Positions 2,345 through 11,790 of a stretch of DNA of 64,000 nucleotides are shown here, one piece after another. The translations under genes and the position numbers were made by a program. The stretch comes from Neocallimastix lanati (nom. inval.) (Eukaryota; Neocallimastigomycota; Neocallimastigomycetes; Neocallimastigales; Neocallimastigaceae): contig JACVTC010000169.1 of NCBI GenBank assembly GCA_016946835.1, positions 216,001 to 280,000 of the forward strand, written 5' to 3'. How positions within the stretch are numbered: position 1 is the stretch's first letter; every line of letters begins with the position of its first letter. The notes below the pieces were generated by a model that saw only the letters and a list, made by a program, of their open reading frames with translations, ran no database searches and had not been told where the DNA came from.

Positions 2345-2349
2345 AGTTT
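2345..2349. repeat. Target-site duplication AGTTT, left
   Basis: AGTTT directly precedes the 5' LTR and is repeated at 5807-5811 directly after the 3' LTR. It marks the exact ends of the insertion. Confidence 0.9.
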
Positions 2350-3009
2350 TGTTAAGATAATAACTGAATTTCAATTCAATTTCAATTTCGATAATTCAGT
2401 TATTTGAATTTCAATATTAATAAATAATAATAATATAATAATTATTATTAAATTAACTTTATTAAAATATTTAGGAATTAGTCTAGGCCAACTAATTACT
2501 AAATATTATTAACATATTGAATTTAATATATATTAAATAATGTAAACACGTGATTGTCATATTAAATTAATTTCTACATATTATATTTTAATTATAAATT
2601 ATAATATTTAGCAATATTTGATTCTTATATTTTATTTATATTAAATATTTATATTATTATCTAACTTTATATTATCAATATCAAACTTATATTAATATTA
2701 TTTACATATTCATATTAATAATTAATATTTTAATAATTAATTATTTTATATAAATACATGTTTAAATTCTTTTGATTAATCCTTTGTAGGATTATTGTAA
2801 TTTAAATTATAGTAATAATTATATAAAATAATAATGTAATAAAATATTATTAAGATTAAATAAAATTTGTATTTTAAATAAAAATTTAATTATAAAATTT
2901 ACTAATAACAATATGTTTTAAATAAGAGCAAAATTAAGTTATTAATTAATTACTATAATTTGGCATCTTGACCTAATCGTTAAGACCAAATTATCTTAAA
3001 ACTTTGACA
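2350..3009 (+). repeat. Family A 5' LTR
   Basis: 660 bp, TGTTAAG...TTGACA. It contains a TATA box (2747-2754), a small hairpin AATCCT-TTGT-AGGATT (2777-2792) and the inferred transcript start at about 2786. That would give U3 of about 436 bp and R plus U5 of about 224 bp. Apparently the same sequence as the 3' LTR at 5147. Confidence 0.92.
2747..2754 (+). promoter_or_regulatory. Probable TATA box of the family A LTR
   Basis: TATATAAA-type sequence in the LTR. It lies about 32-38 nt upstream of the segment at 2786-2798 whose complement is found at the LTR/interior junction, a spacing suited to a transcript starting at about 2786. The box is also present in the inverted solo copy at 7897-8554. 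Confidence 0.55.
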
Positions 3010-3019
3010 ATAATCCTAC
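3010..3019 (+). other. Putative self-primed primer-binding site
   Basis: The ten bases directly after the 5' LTR, ATAATCCTAC, are the exact reverse complement of GTAGGATTAT at 2786-2795. Counting the last three LTR bases, the pairing is 13 nt (3007-3019 with 2786-2798). A site for the 3' end of a tRNA would have to start with TGG (complement of CCA), and this does not. In the Tf1/sushi group the first ~11 nt of the mRNA pair with the primer site and are cleaved off to prime cDNA synthesis; position and complementarity fit that model. The mechanism is inferred. Confidence 0.65.
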
Positions 3020-3043
3020 CAACAATCTATCGATTACCTTAAG

Positions 3044-3877
3044 ATGCCTAAAGTTATAAAAATTACTTCAGATATATCATTTAAAAGAAATGATATATCT
3101 ATCCCAATAAAGGATAAAGAAGATATGATTCCCATTAGTGAATACAACAGGTTTATTGGTAAGGCTGAGAAAGAACTTCATGATCGATTGGATGAATTAA
3201 TAAGAATTCAAAGACTTATTCACGTCCTTAAATCAAAAGTAAAACAGTTGGAGGAAGAAAATTCTTTAGAAAGTAAAACTTGTCAGGACATTATAAATCA
3301 AATTAATTTATTGGAACAATTACGTAGAAGAAGTTCCTTATTCCTTGTCCAAGTTAATAGGTCCTTAAATTATATAGAACCAAAATCATGTACGAAACAA
3401 AAAGAAGGTATTAATGAAATGAAGAATAATGCTGATGATAAAATTCACGATATAAGCTTATACAAAAAAGCTGAAGTTAGCCATAACAAAAAAGAAAATA
3501 TTGAAAATCCATATCAGTGTGATAATCATCTAATCAATAACAATAATGATAATAACAATAACGATAATAACAATAACGATAATAACAATAACGATAATAA
3601 CAATAAAAGGATAACTAACATGAAAGCAAAAGTAGAAACTAAACTAACCTTGAGAAGAAAGCCTAAACGAAGAACCAAACCAAAACCTACATCCCACACT
3701 TCAAACAACAATGAAAAAATTCATAAAAGAGTATCAGTTACAGTAATTAACACCCCAGTTATACAAAAAGTTATTCAAAAGTTCAAAGAAACAAAGATAA
3801 AGGTAAATTCACATGAATCAGACTTCTCTCCTCCCTATCATGGGAATAAGAACTATATAACATATGAATTTCAATAA
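3044..3877 (+). CDS. Gag-like protein of family A element (277 aa)
   Basis: The only long frame inside the family A retrotransposon, starting 34 nt after the 5' LTR, where a gag gene is expected. Residues about 35-115 are charged with heptad-like leucine/isoleucine spacing and probably form a helical coiled coil, plausible for particle assembly. Residues 161-187 are an Asn/Asp repeat (NNNND units) encoded by a 15-bp minisatellite. Residues 190-215 are strongly basic (KLTLRRKPKRRTKPKP) and could bind RNA in place of a zinc knuckle, which is absent. No protease or polymerase motifs follow. I do not recognise the protein by sequence; the gag role is inferred from position and layout. Confidence 0.6.
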   Translation: MPKVIKITSDISFKRNDISIPIKDKEDMIPISEYNRFIGKAEKELHDRLDELIRIQRLIHVLKSKVKQLEEENSLESKTCQDIINQINLLEQLRRRSSLFLVQVNRSLNYIEPKSCTKQKEGINEMKNNADDKIHDISLYKKAEVSHNKKENIENPYQCDNHLINNNNDNNNNDNNNNDNNNNDNNNKRITNMKAKVETKLTLRRKPKRRTKPKPTSHTSNNNEKIHKRVSVTVINTPVIQKVIQKFKETKIKVNSHESDFSPPYHGNKNYITYEFQ

Positions 3878-4469
3878 ATAATAATTAATTTATTAATTAA
3901 ACTACTTATACTGCACTGTACTACTCTTATAATCCTCATGTCTCGCTTTTTATTAAAATATTTTTACAATTTAATCAAACATTATATCGTTTATTAAAGT
4001 CAATTTTTAATTTCTATATTAAAAGTTTAAGTAAATTTTATTCATTTTAAATACTGTATTACAAAAGTAATAATTACAAATTATTCAAAAAATAAACAAA
4101 ATTATATTTCTTAAAACAATCGTTAAAATTCCAAAAACGTTATATACTAATAAATATATACAATTTTATAATTTAAATTTTAACTATTAAAAATATATAT
4201 ATATATAAATTTCTATTACATAAAATCAATCAATTCTATATTTTAAACAAATAAATAAATATTCTCTTCGACTGAATTGCAATAATAATTTACTTTTAAA
4301 CATCAGTTATAAATTTATAAATAGCAAAATTACATTAATCTTATTAAATTTTAAATTTCTGAATTAATCATAGAAAAATAATAATATGAAAGAAGGAAGG
4401 AGGAGCATTCTAAATTGATTCAATATTTGAAATTTAATAGATTAATTAAAATTTGCTTAATATTATATT

Positions 4470-4485
4470 GAAAAGGACGCTTTTC
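4470..4485 (+). other. Hairpin 1 with AAGGACGCTT core
   Basis: GAAAAGGACGCTTTTC forms a 6-bp stem with a GACG tetraloop. It shares the core AAGGACGCTT with the hairpin 26 nt downstream. It lies in the 3' non-coding interior of the family A retrotransposon. Confidence 0.6.
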
Positions 4486-4511
4486 TCTATAATATTCTTT
4501 GATGATAAAAT

Positions 4512-4544
4512 GATAATTATGATAAGGACGCTTTCATAATTATC
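4512..4544 (+). other. Hairpin 2 with AAGGACGCTT core
   Basis: A perfect 11-bp stem (GATAATTATGA with TCATAATTATC) displays the loop TAAGGACGCTT, repeating the core of the first hairpin. Paired hairpins of this kind could serve in RNA packaging or dimerisation; that role is inferred. Confidence 0.6.
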
Positions 4545-5134
4545 AAGATTAATAATATTTTAAATTGAATATTATAATATATTCAATAAATTATATTGAT
4601 AAAATATATTCAATAATTAAATTGATAAAATTTTCAATTACAATTTCAGAATTTAGAAAATTAAAAATTAAAAATTTTAAAATTTCAAATTTCGACATTT
4701 AAAATTTCACATTACGAAATTTCAAAATTTAATAAAAATTAAATATTCAACTATTTAATAGTAATTTTATATTTTTATATATTTATTATTTACTATATTT
4801 TTAAAATTTTCAATAATTTCAAAGTTAATGGTAAAAATTGAAATGTTAATTTCAATTAAATTTCAAAATTTCAATTTCAAAATTTTACAAGGAAATATAT
4901 AATAATGTTGGTACCATCATATTTAAAAACATTGAATTTTATAATAAAATTTTAATTTTAACAAATTTTGACAAATTTCAAATTTCATGAAATTGTCACT
5001 TAAAAGGTCTTCTCCTAAAGATTCAAGTGACCTTTTAATTCCTAATTAACTTTAAAAAATTAAAAATTTTTTTTTAATAACTTAACAAAATTTTTTTTAA
5101 CAATGTTACACAAATCGTCTGGAATCCGATTTTT

Positions 5135-5146
5135 GTGGAAGGGCAT
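5135..5146 (+). other. Polypurine tract of family A element
   Basis: GTGGAAGGGCAT lies directly before the TG of the 3' LTR, with core GGAAGGG (5137-5143). This is the usual position of the plus-strand cDNA primer. The tract is short for a PPT and ends three bases before the LTR. Confidence 0.6.
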
Positions 5147-5806
5147 TGTTAAGATAATAACTGAATTTCAATTCAATTTCAATTTCGATAATTCAGTTAT
5201 TTGAATTTCAATATTAATAAATAATAATAATATAATAATTATTATTAAATTAACTTTATTAAAATATTTAGGAATTAGTCTAGGCCAACTAATTACTAAA
5301 TATTATTAACATATTGAATTTAATATATATTAAATAATGTAAACACGTGATTGTCATATTAAATTAATTTCTACATATTATATTTTAATTATAAATTATA
5401 ATATTTAGCAATATTTGATTCTTATATTTTATTTATATTAAATATTTATATTATTATCTAACTTTATATTATCAATATCAAACTTATATTAATATTATTT
5501 ACATATTCATATTAATAATTAATATTTTAATAATTAATTATTTTATATAAATACATGTTTAAATTCTTTTGATTAATCCTTTGTAGGATTATTGTAATTT
5601 AAATTATAGTAATAATTATATAAAATAATAATGTAATAAAATATTATTAAGATTAAATAAAATTTGTATTTTAAATAAAAATTTAATTATAAAATTTACT
5701 AATAACAATATGTTTTAAATAAGAGCAAAATTAAGTTATTAATTAATTACTATAATTTGGCATCTTGACCTAATCGTTAAGACCAAATTATCTTAAAACT
5801 TTGACA
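5147..5806 (+). repeat. Family A 3' LTR
   Basis: 660 bp, matching the 5' LTR throughout as far as I can read. It is followed by the duplicated AGTTT (5807-5811). Confidence 0.92.
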
Positions 5807-5811
5807 AGTTT

Positions 5812-5856
5812 ATTTAATTTTTTATTTATTTTTTATTTATTATTTGTATCGTAACA
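5812..5856 (-). repeat. Family B LTR-like terminus cut off by family A
   Basis: On the minus strand this reads TGTTACGATACAAATAATAA, a family B 5' terminus (compare TGTTACGGTACCACC at 45). Family A inserted 45 bp inside it. It ends 14 nt upstream of tRNA-Ser, the same spacing as the family B unit at 6657 has to tRNA-Trp. Confidence 0.6.
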
Positions 5857-5870
5857 AAAAACATGAAGTA

Positions 5871-5952
5871 GTCAGTTTGTCCGAGTGGTTAAGGAGTCAG
5901 ACTTGAAATCTGGTGGGCTCTGCCCGCGCAGGTTCAAACCCTGCAGCTGACG
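5871..5952 (+). tRNA. tRNA-Ser: tRNA-Ser (UGA anticodon)
   Basis: The 7-bp acceptor stem GTCAGTT/AGCTGAC closes with one G-U pair, and the discriminator is G. The anticodon stem CAGA/TCTG holds loop CTTGAAA, anticodon TGA, reading UCA. The long variable arm (TGGGCTCTGCCCG) is the class II hallmark of serine tRNA. A box TTGTCCGAGTGG and B box GGTTCAAACCC are both present. No intron. Only 9 nt separate it from the following tRNA-Cys, with no T-run between. Confidence 0.96.
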
Positions 5953-7162: not shown

Positions 7163-7844
7163 TATTTCATAAATAACCAAATTATAAATTAAGAAAAATC
7201 AATAAAATGGAATAATAACCCTCTTAATTAGTTATTGATAATTATAAAATAATATTTTAATAAAAATAAATTAAAAGATTTAAAATTATTAAATAAATAT
7301 TATTTTAATTTAAAGAACAATGTATTTTATATTAAATTATTCTTTTATTTTACTTTAACGATTTTAAATTAAATCTCAGTTTAAATTGATATTAATATTA
7401 ATTAAAAAGAAACTTATTAATAATAACAAAATTGTTTATTTTATCTTAAAAGTGTTTACTTAAAATAATTATATAGTTTTATTTTAAATAATTTAAACTT
7501 AAAAGAAAAATATAAAAACATGTAAATATTTCTTTAAAAATAAAAAATCAGAATTCAAGAATTAAAAATTTAAAATTTAAGTTTTAATAAATTATTTTCT
7601 TTTATTCTCATTTATTTTAAATACTTTTTATTAAGAATATAAATTTTCAAAATAATAAAAAGTACAATTTTATATTGATAAATAAAGTTTTATTATAAAA
7701 AAAAAACAAATATTCTTTTCTTATTTTAAACTGTAGTGTTTTAATTAACATTTTTGTGTTAATAACTACCCTTTTAATTGACAAATTATTATCACTTTTA
7801 GAAGTAAATTCTAAATTAAGATAATAATCAACATTTGTCATATT
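7163..7844. other. A+T-rich DNA, no gene
   Basis: No coding signal. A block at about 7503-7535 repeats the one near 564-600. Confidence 0.55.
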
Positions 7845-9048
7845 TGATACGAGATATTTAATAAGAATGTAAAGTGATATAATTATTATTTTAAATTGTT
7901 AAAGTTTTAAGATAATTTGGTCTTAACGATTAGGTCAAGATGCCAAATTATAGTAATTAATTAATAATTTAATTTTATTCTTATTTAAATCATATTATTA
8001 TTAGTAAATTTTATAATTAAGTTTTTGTATTTAAAATATAAATTTTATTTAATCTTAATAATATTTTATTACATTATTATTTTATATAGTTATTACTATA
8101 ATTTAAATTACAATAATCCTACAAAGGATTAATCAAAAGATTTAAACATGTATTTATATAAAATAATTAATTATTAAAATATTAATATTAATATGAATAT
8201 GTAATAGTATTAATATAAGTTTGATATTGATAATATAAACTAGGATAATAATATAAATATTTAATATAAATAAAAATAAGAATTAAATATTGCTAAATAT
8301 TATAATTTATAATTAAAATATAATATGTAGAAATTAATTTAATATGACAATCACGTGTTTACATTATTTAATATATATTAAATTCAATATGTTAATAATA
8401 TTTAGTAATTAGTTGGCCTAGACTAATTCCTAAATATTTTAATAAAGTTAATTTAATAATAATTATTATATTATTATTTTTTATTAATATTGAAATTCAA
8501 ATAACTGAATTATCGAAATTGAAATTGAATTGAAATTCAGTTATTATCTTAACATAAATATTATTGTAAATAATTTTATTATTAATATTTTCTAAATAAG
8601 TTAAAATTAATATTTAATAAGATATAATATTATAAAATTATTTTATTATTTTATTATTAATATAAGTTTATTATAAAAAATATATATAATATAATTAATT
8701 ATATAATAAGTACAAATTTTAAATAATAATAATATAGAGAATAATAAGATAAAAATTAGTTAGGAAGTTTTAATTATAAAAAAAATGTTGTGTTTTTATT
8801 TTTATTGAAATGTATTAATTGAGAATGAATAATAGTGAATAATTATTTTAATAAATAAATATAATAAAGTGAATAATTTTAATAAATAAACATAATAAAA
8901 TGAACATTATATTCTAAAATAATAATAATTTAAGTGTATTATATAAATATATAATAATTATTATACTATTTCATAAATACGATATTTCTTGATTAATTCC
9001 CTCTTGCTTTTCCCATATTTTATGATACTTTTTAAATTAATTGTATCA
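7845..9048 (+). repeat. Family B LTR-like element split by a family A solo LTR
   Basis: Starts TGATACGAGATATTT and ends TTGTATCA, with TATT on both sides (7841-7844 and 9049-9052). Subtracting the nested family A LTR (7897-8554) and its 5-bp duplication leaves 541 bp, close to the 506 and 537 bp of the other solo units. The TTAATTCCCTC block at about 8993 is the conserved 3' block of the family. Confidence 0.68.
7897..8554 (-). repeat. Family A solo LTR nested in family B
   Basis: 658 bp, the family A LTR in reverse: on the minus strand it starts TGTTAAGATAAT and ends with TTTAACA. A 5-bp duplication TAAAT flanks it (7892-7896 and 8555-8559). It differs from the full-length element's LTRs at scattered positions, so it is older. 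The TATA box and the GTAGGATTATTGT segment are retained. Confidence 0.9.
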
Positions 9049-11100: not shown

Positions 11101-11790
11101 TGTTAAGATAATAACTGAATTTCCATTTAATTCAATTTCAATTTCAATTTCAATTTCAATAATTCAGTTATTTGAATTCCAATATTAATGAATAATAATA
11201 TATAATAATTATTGTTAAATTAACTTTATTAAAATATTTAAGAAAAAGTCTTAGGCTAACTAATTGACTAAATATTATTAACCTACTGAAATTAATATTA
11301 TACATTAAATAATGTAAACACGTGATTGTCATATTAAATTAATTTCTATTAATTTATTATCAAAATCTTTACATATTATATTTTAATTATAAAATATAAT
11401 ATTTAGGTTATATTAGATTCTTATATTTTATTTATATTAAATATTTTTATTATTATCTTACTTTATATTATCAATATCAAATTATTACATATTCATATTA
11501 ATAATTAGTATTTTAATAATTAATTATTTTATGTAAATACATGTTTAAATCTTTTGATTAATCCTTTGCAGGATTATTGCAATTTAAATTATTGTAATAA
11601 TTATATAAAATAATAATGTAATGAAATATTATTAAGATTAAATAAAATTTATATTTTAAATAAAAAACTTAATTATAAAATTTACTAATAGCAATATGTT
11701 TTAAATAAGAGTAAATCTAAATTATTAATTAATTACTATAATTTAGCATCTTGACCTAACCTAAGACCAAATTATCTCAAAACTTTAACA
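11101..11790 (+). repeat. Family A solo LTR, diverged
   Basis: Starts TGTTAAGATAATAACTGAA and ends AACTTTAACA, following the family A LTR throughout with many substitutions and small insertions. The flanking pentamers (AATTT and TGGAA) do not match, so the target duplication is lost or the copy rearranged. The inferred transcript start reads GCAGGATTATTGC here. It is the oldest of the family A copies in the window. Confidence 0.82.

Follow-up and report, generated by a model that had tools for sequence, protein, structure and literature searches.

A recent non-autonomous LTR retrotransposon of Neocallimastix lanati that probably primes its own reverse transcription

Introduction

In Tf1, Tf2, Tj1 and Tf1/sushi elements (Ty3/gypsy chromoviruses), the primer-binding site (PBS) lies directly past the long terminal repeat (LTR) and is complementary to the putative RNA 5' end, and a U5:leader duplex crosses the primer:PBS duplex. 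LARD and TR-GAG are non-autonomous LTR elements with two LTRs, a PBS and a polypurine tract (PPT) and without pol, an organisation shared by TRIM elements. The Tf1-type RNA fold is described as a 'pretzel' in the accessible part of PMC10085805, and self-priming outside gypsy is predicted for the TAR lineage of Ty1/copia (Houba, Osr-1) in the accessible part of PMC6317226.

Here we describe an element from a window of 64,000 nucleotides (the whole stretch of DNA that was analysed; contig JACVTC010000169.1, positions 216,001 to 280,000, forward strand) of the anaerobic fungus Neocallimastix lanati, which shares the PBS position, its complementarity and the predicted crossing duplexes with Tf1/sushi, and the two LTRs, PBS and PPT with TRIM, LARD and TR-GAG. 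It differs from Tf1/sushi in that no pol was found in its family, and from Tf1 in that one pretzel duplex is missing and the primer match to the LTR border is 10 nt rather than 11 (PMC7175516, available sections). TAR elements are autonomous plant copia elements, whereas this one has no RT by which a lineage could be assigned. TRIM elements are <1 kb with a tRNA-complementary PBS (PMC6934838, in the part available), in contrast to 3.5 kb and a conserved ORF matching no Gag here. Insertion upstream of Pol III genes is shared with Tj1, although at 65-68 nt from tRNA genes as opposed to 5-11 bp (PMC4600332, excerpted text).

Element structure and copies in the genome

The element (2350-5806) has LTRs identical at 660 of 660 nt and an AGTTT target duplication on both flanks, and was therefore considered a recent insertion. 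With LTRs and target duplication and without pol, it is a non-autonomous LTR retrotransposon. The following features were annotated:

2345..2349, + strand, target-site duplication AGTTT, 5' copy (3' copy at 5807-5811)
2350..3009, + strand, 5' LTR (TGTTAAG...TTTGACA), identical to the 3' LTR
2747..2756, + strand, TATA-like box TATATAAATA, putative promoter
2777..2794, + strand, LTR hairpin across the putative transcript start in the fold from 2762, occupying the primer in the longer RNA
2786..2795, + strand, putative self-primer (RNA nt 1-10 from the putative transcript start), complementarity continuing to 2798
2955..2994, + strand, U5 stem-loop; alternatively, 2962-2971 and 2974-2979 pair with the leader
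3010..3019, + strand, PBS ATAATCCTAC, complementarity beginning at 3007
3031..3048, + strand, leader and first codon, complementary to U5 2962-2979 by duplex computation
3044..3877, + strand, family A ORF, 277 aa, unknown family, predicted two-helix N-terminal hairpin and conserved tail NSHESDFSPP
4459..4545, + strand, pair of GACG-tetraloop stem-loops, 3' non-coding part, candidate packaging/dimer signal
5135..5146, + strand, putative PPT GTGGAAGGGCAT preceding the 3' LTR
5147..5806, + strand, 3' LTR, identical to the 5' LTR

CBM_10 domains, which serve as fungal dockerins, occur in neighbouring genes and, together with the A+T content, point to an anaerobic gut fungus as host. Two solo LTRs of the same lineage lie at 7897-8554 (-) and 11101-11790 (+), the latter with GCAGGATTATTGC at the primer site; a PBS matching it (CCTGC) was found at none of 34 places from a PBS search of the genome.

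Copies were sought in the 199 Mb assembly containing the window, which is very A+T-rich. The pattern CTTTRACAATAATCCTAC with one mismatch allowed gave 39 places (reversed control, 1), of which 33 were read and comprised 32 elements of three ORF families (ten A, thirteen B and nine C) and one fold-back copy at C5; the other six were read at the match only (C24:825296, C24:989683, C179, C230, C746:266814 and C753). The LTR and leader are common to the three families, and the proteins of B and C show 27 and 35% identity to A. For 30 of the 39 PBS places a PPT/U3 site was located on the same strand at 1933-2502 nt, an internal region too short for pol; neither pol, nor the chromodomain integrase and lineage RT of Tf1/sushi, was found in the parts of the copies read. 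A 77-nt LTR core was present in 343 genome copies with at most three mismatches, so these are probably mostly solo LTRs.

Complementarity between LTR and PBS

It had been noted that the 10 nt after the 5' LTR are the exact reverse complement of 2786-2795 and that the match extends to 13 nt. Both points were confirmed: 2786-2798 is GTAGGATTATTGT and 3007-3019 is ACAATAATCCTAC, and this is the sole complement of at least 8 nt between the LTR and 3005-3045. The PBS lacks the initial TGG found at or near the LTR end in tRNA-primed LTR elements. Its first base is the first base past the LTR, and the LTR segment that it complements lies at the expected RNA start, as in Tf1/sushi. The TATA-like box was likewise located, TATATAAATA beginning at 2747, 39 nt upstream of 2786, and the small hairpin described for the LTR segment was recovered, 2777-2783 pairing with 2788-2794 in the fold from 2762.

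Search for a tRNA primer

An alternative reading is that priming is by an unusual tRNA or by part of a tRNA (half-tRNA, as in copia and Ty5), the LTR match being incidental or regulatory. Half-tRNA priming is probably present in the host, because a copia-like element of the same genome (L197) has a PBS, GATTAAGAGTC, complementary to a tRNA-like anticodon arm with anticodon CTT. The same search applied to this PBS served as a positive control: its complement was found at 83 places (control, 0), and a single tRNA-like sequence with CTT at the anticodon position, which by reading we take to be tRNA-Lys(CUU), accounted for 73. For the element itself, GTAGGATTAT with the T-loop motif GTTCRA 8-38 nt further on occurred at four places (control, 8), none tRNA-like by reading and one of them the C5 fold-back copy; this search covered exact, unedited matches free of long introns. 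No complementarity of the PBS to an internal tRNA segment was found in the exact-match genome search, and the primer strand shared at most 5 nt with the few kinds of tRNA compared. A tRNA primer also leaves the 13-nt LTR match unexplained, and we regard this explanation as unlikely.

RNA folding

When folding was started from 2786, the ten primer:PBS pairs formed with probabilities of 0.98-1.0 and the 13th pair with 0.87. In the minimum-energy fold from 2762, the primer was instead sequestered in the LTR hairpin 2777-2794, and these models suggest that an exact transcript start licenses priming. The duplex between U5 2962-2979 and leader 3031-3048 reached -25.5 kcal/mol, compared to -10.3 +/- 2.3 in shuffles (0/1000), and was found at the same place in 27/27 sequences (-17.2 to -25.5), with G-C and G-U pairs replacing one another between families. 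It lies just 3' of the PBS and crosses primer:PBS; its probability in the nested ensemble was 0.0, because U5 prefers its own stem-loop. The third pretzel duplex (PBS-upstream) was not found, 394 of 1000 shuffles being equally good. Sequence or folding support was thus obtained for two of the three pretzel duplexes. A search of Rfam gave no match.

The complementarity could also reflect a genuine RNA fold with another function, for example in the leader during packaging, dimerisation or translation control, with something else as primer. Such a role would agree with the extensive structure of the leader and U5 and with the position of the start codon within the U5:leader duplex; no other primer candidates were found, however, and the complement begins precisely at the base from which minus-strand DNA has to start, so that we consider this very improbable.

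Conservation and chance

Pairing was counted in 29 of the 33 places read, corresponding to 27 distinct sequences of the three ORF families; L061 (primer site not found), L062 and L063 (LTR replaced or rearranged upstream) and L195 (fold-back) were omitted. Primer:PBS cells were paired in 349/351 cases. PBS changes were seen in four copies at three sites and all four turn into G-U pairs, while a primer pair is broken in L049, despite its intact ORF, and the 13th pair in L059. Diversity of the PBS 13-mer was 0.022, five to six times below the flanks, where it reached 0.137 immediately upstream and 0.121 immediately downstream. The primer had a diversity of 0.011, with equally low values in the adjoining R sequence (0.006-0.017 over 2799-2850), so a contrast with the flanks is confined to the PBS. 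Covariation of primer and PBS, which had been suggested as a check, did not appear: no compensatory double change was detected in the 29 copies, because these are close relatives and too alike. The pattern is one of conservation, not covariation.

Chance complementarity in A+T-rich sequence is the least probable explanation and can be largely set aside: a complement within the preceding 660 nt is shared by 29/8,740 window 10-mers with three G/C (5 of the 29 at 205-240 nt upstream) in a looser control that includes the element's own repeats, and conservation among copies is not independent since all derive from one LTR lineage, but among 20,000 LTRs shuffled by dinucleotide the 10-mer complement arose in 9, and in 0/20,000 did it fall within 10 nt of the true position, in line with the original assessment of the 13-nt match, and the PBS varies far less than its flanks.

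Encoded protein, GACG hairpins and insertion sites

The element had been termed gag-only, a description that was not supported, as the family A ORF has no Pfam match and no Gag, of the TR-GAG kind or other, was recognisable by structure or sequence. Pfam likewise gave no match for the C ORFs and one match at E 0.94 for B; for the Gags of the gypsy families G1 and G2 the matches were to zf-CCHC or Ty3_capsid and fell below the curated cut-offs. A model of the A ORF contained a helical hairpin at 31-110 with the remainder at low confidence (mean pLDDT 49), and no match to the PDB was obtained at E up to 0.001; the fold prediction is uninformative. The C-terminal SHESDFSPP does not vary among the ORFs of A, B and C, although its DNA shows synonymous changes, and the remainder diverges. 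A hydrophobic stretch precedes it in B and C.

Gammaretroviruses reportedly carry a pair of GACG hairpins (Konings 1992). The pair at 4459-4545 (fold z -4.97) similarly consists of two neighbouring stem-loops with GACG tetraloops and is retained in families A, B and C; the double motif was present at 30 genome places (control, 0), and in 26 cases it lay downstream of a PBS place. In gammaretroviruses these hairpins are linked to packaging and dimerisation, according to the available part of PMC516450. They lie in the 5' leader there and in the 3' non-coding part here, where such a function is a candidate one, and the likeness is probably convergent.

Among 68 partly overlapping loci, six insertions of either orientation had LTR ends 65-68 nt upstream of a tRNA 5' end (window 5806-5871, L012, L028, L036, L037 and L050). 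Separately, tRNA-like GACTCTTAATC...GGTTCGA matches alternate in strand about every 5.5 kb over whole contigs (C188, C251, C353 and others), resembling an inverted array.

Search for an autonomous partner

An autonomous relative with a classable RT, suggested as a check, was not found via the PBS, the PPT, the GACG pair, RVT_1 and RVT_2 (among the 150 of 5028 and 150 of 2891 candidates listed, respectively) or seven sampled gypsy 5' ends. Candidate sites in these seven were TGGTGGAGATATCGGGG (L070, L223, L224 and L226), TGGTGGAGAATCC (L071 and L225) and AGGTGGAGAATCC (L222), the LTR ends being mapped with both LTRs for L070 and L071 only. All are of TGG or GG type, and hence no self-primed partner is known.

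The sampled copia 5' end was that of L197 (C101:1033000-1036500), where a copia-like ORF and a 5' end with the half-tRNA-type PBS are followed, by reading, by the 3' end and LTR of the family described here; it looks like a rearranged copy. No relatives were found in viral contigs; a 14-nt scan was too short to be informative. In three of 20 sampled tRNA flanks (L203, L211 and L212), G1 or G2 gypsy LTR ends lay 14-15 nt upstream of tRNA genes, and this distance disfavours G1 and G2 as partner. A solo LTR of the G2 family was also noted, by reading, at about 7165-7842.

Discussion

The best explanation is probably that a recent non-autonomous LTR retrotransposon uses its RNA to prime its own reverse transcription as Tf1 does. 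We favour it because the complementarity is non-random, is positioned precisely on the LTR/PBS border and persists across three ORF families, because a tRNA origin was not found despite a working positive control, and because two of the three pretzel duplexes can form. The original proposal of Tf1-like self-priming is partly supported: compensatory change, the third duplex and an autonomous relative were not found. Membership of Tf1/sushi cannot be claimed as no RT is encoded, and the priming lineage is not classable by RT, although the element likely works like Tf1 self-priming.

Under self-priming, transcription would begin at or adjoining G2786, and RNA nt 1-10, GTAGGATTAT, complementary to PBS 3010-3019, would fold back on it, where the U5:leader helix just 3' may lock a Tf1-like pseudoknot. 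An enzyme provided in trans would cleave with its RNase H after about nucleotide 10, minus-strand DNA would begin opposite the last LTR base, and GUAGGAUUAU would be expected as the RNA tail on minus-strand strong-stop DNA. Folding further suggests that in RNA begun upstream the LTR hairpin would sequester the primer, which would restrict priming to correctly started RNA. Plus-strand synthesis would copy the primer back into the PBS, and primer and PBS would therefore stay matched.

The fold-back copy L195 (C5:559300-560400) is a junction across the primer:PBS complementarity: at the PBS, its LTR end is joined to the primer site and U3 in inverted orientation, followed by the inverted U3 start, the PPT and 3' sequence. 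Its LTR also has a longer perfect palindrome at the primer site. Annealing of plus-strand DNA, by its PBS end, to the R start rather than to its proper target would yield such a copy; rearrangement via the 13-nt microhomology could give the same appearance.

Self-priming is tied to autonomous lineages in the literature examined, namely Tf1/sushi in gypsy (PMC10085805) and TAR in copia (PMC6317226), as represented in the sections available, and no report of self-priming in an anaerobic fungus was returned by a literature search of partial coverage. With 38 PBS-bearing elements in one genome, a family lacking pol would separate self-priming RNA from any RT gene, and would allow a test of whether the mechanism is set by the RNA alone and of which RTs accept such RNA. 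Tentatively, this fungal family, with only cis-acting parts and one small helical protein, may self-prime with the enzymes of tRNA-primed autonomous elements. If so, self-priming would be a portable RNA-encoded device and not a property of one RT lineage, combined here with the GACG hairpin pair as packaging signal and fixed-distance insertion from tRNA genes.
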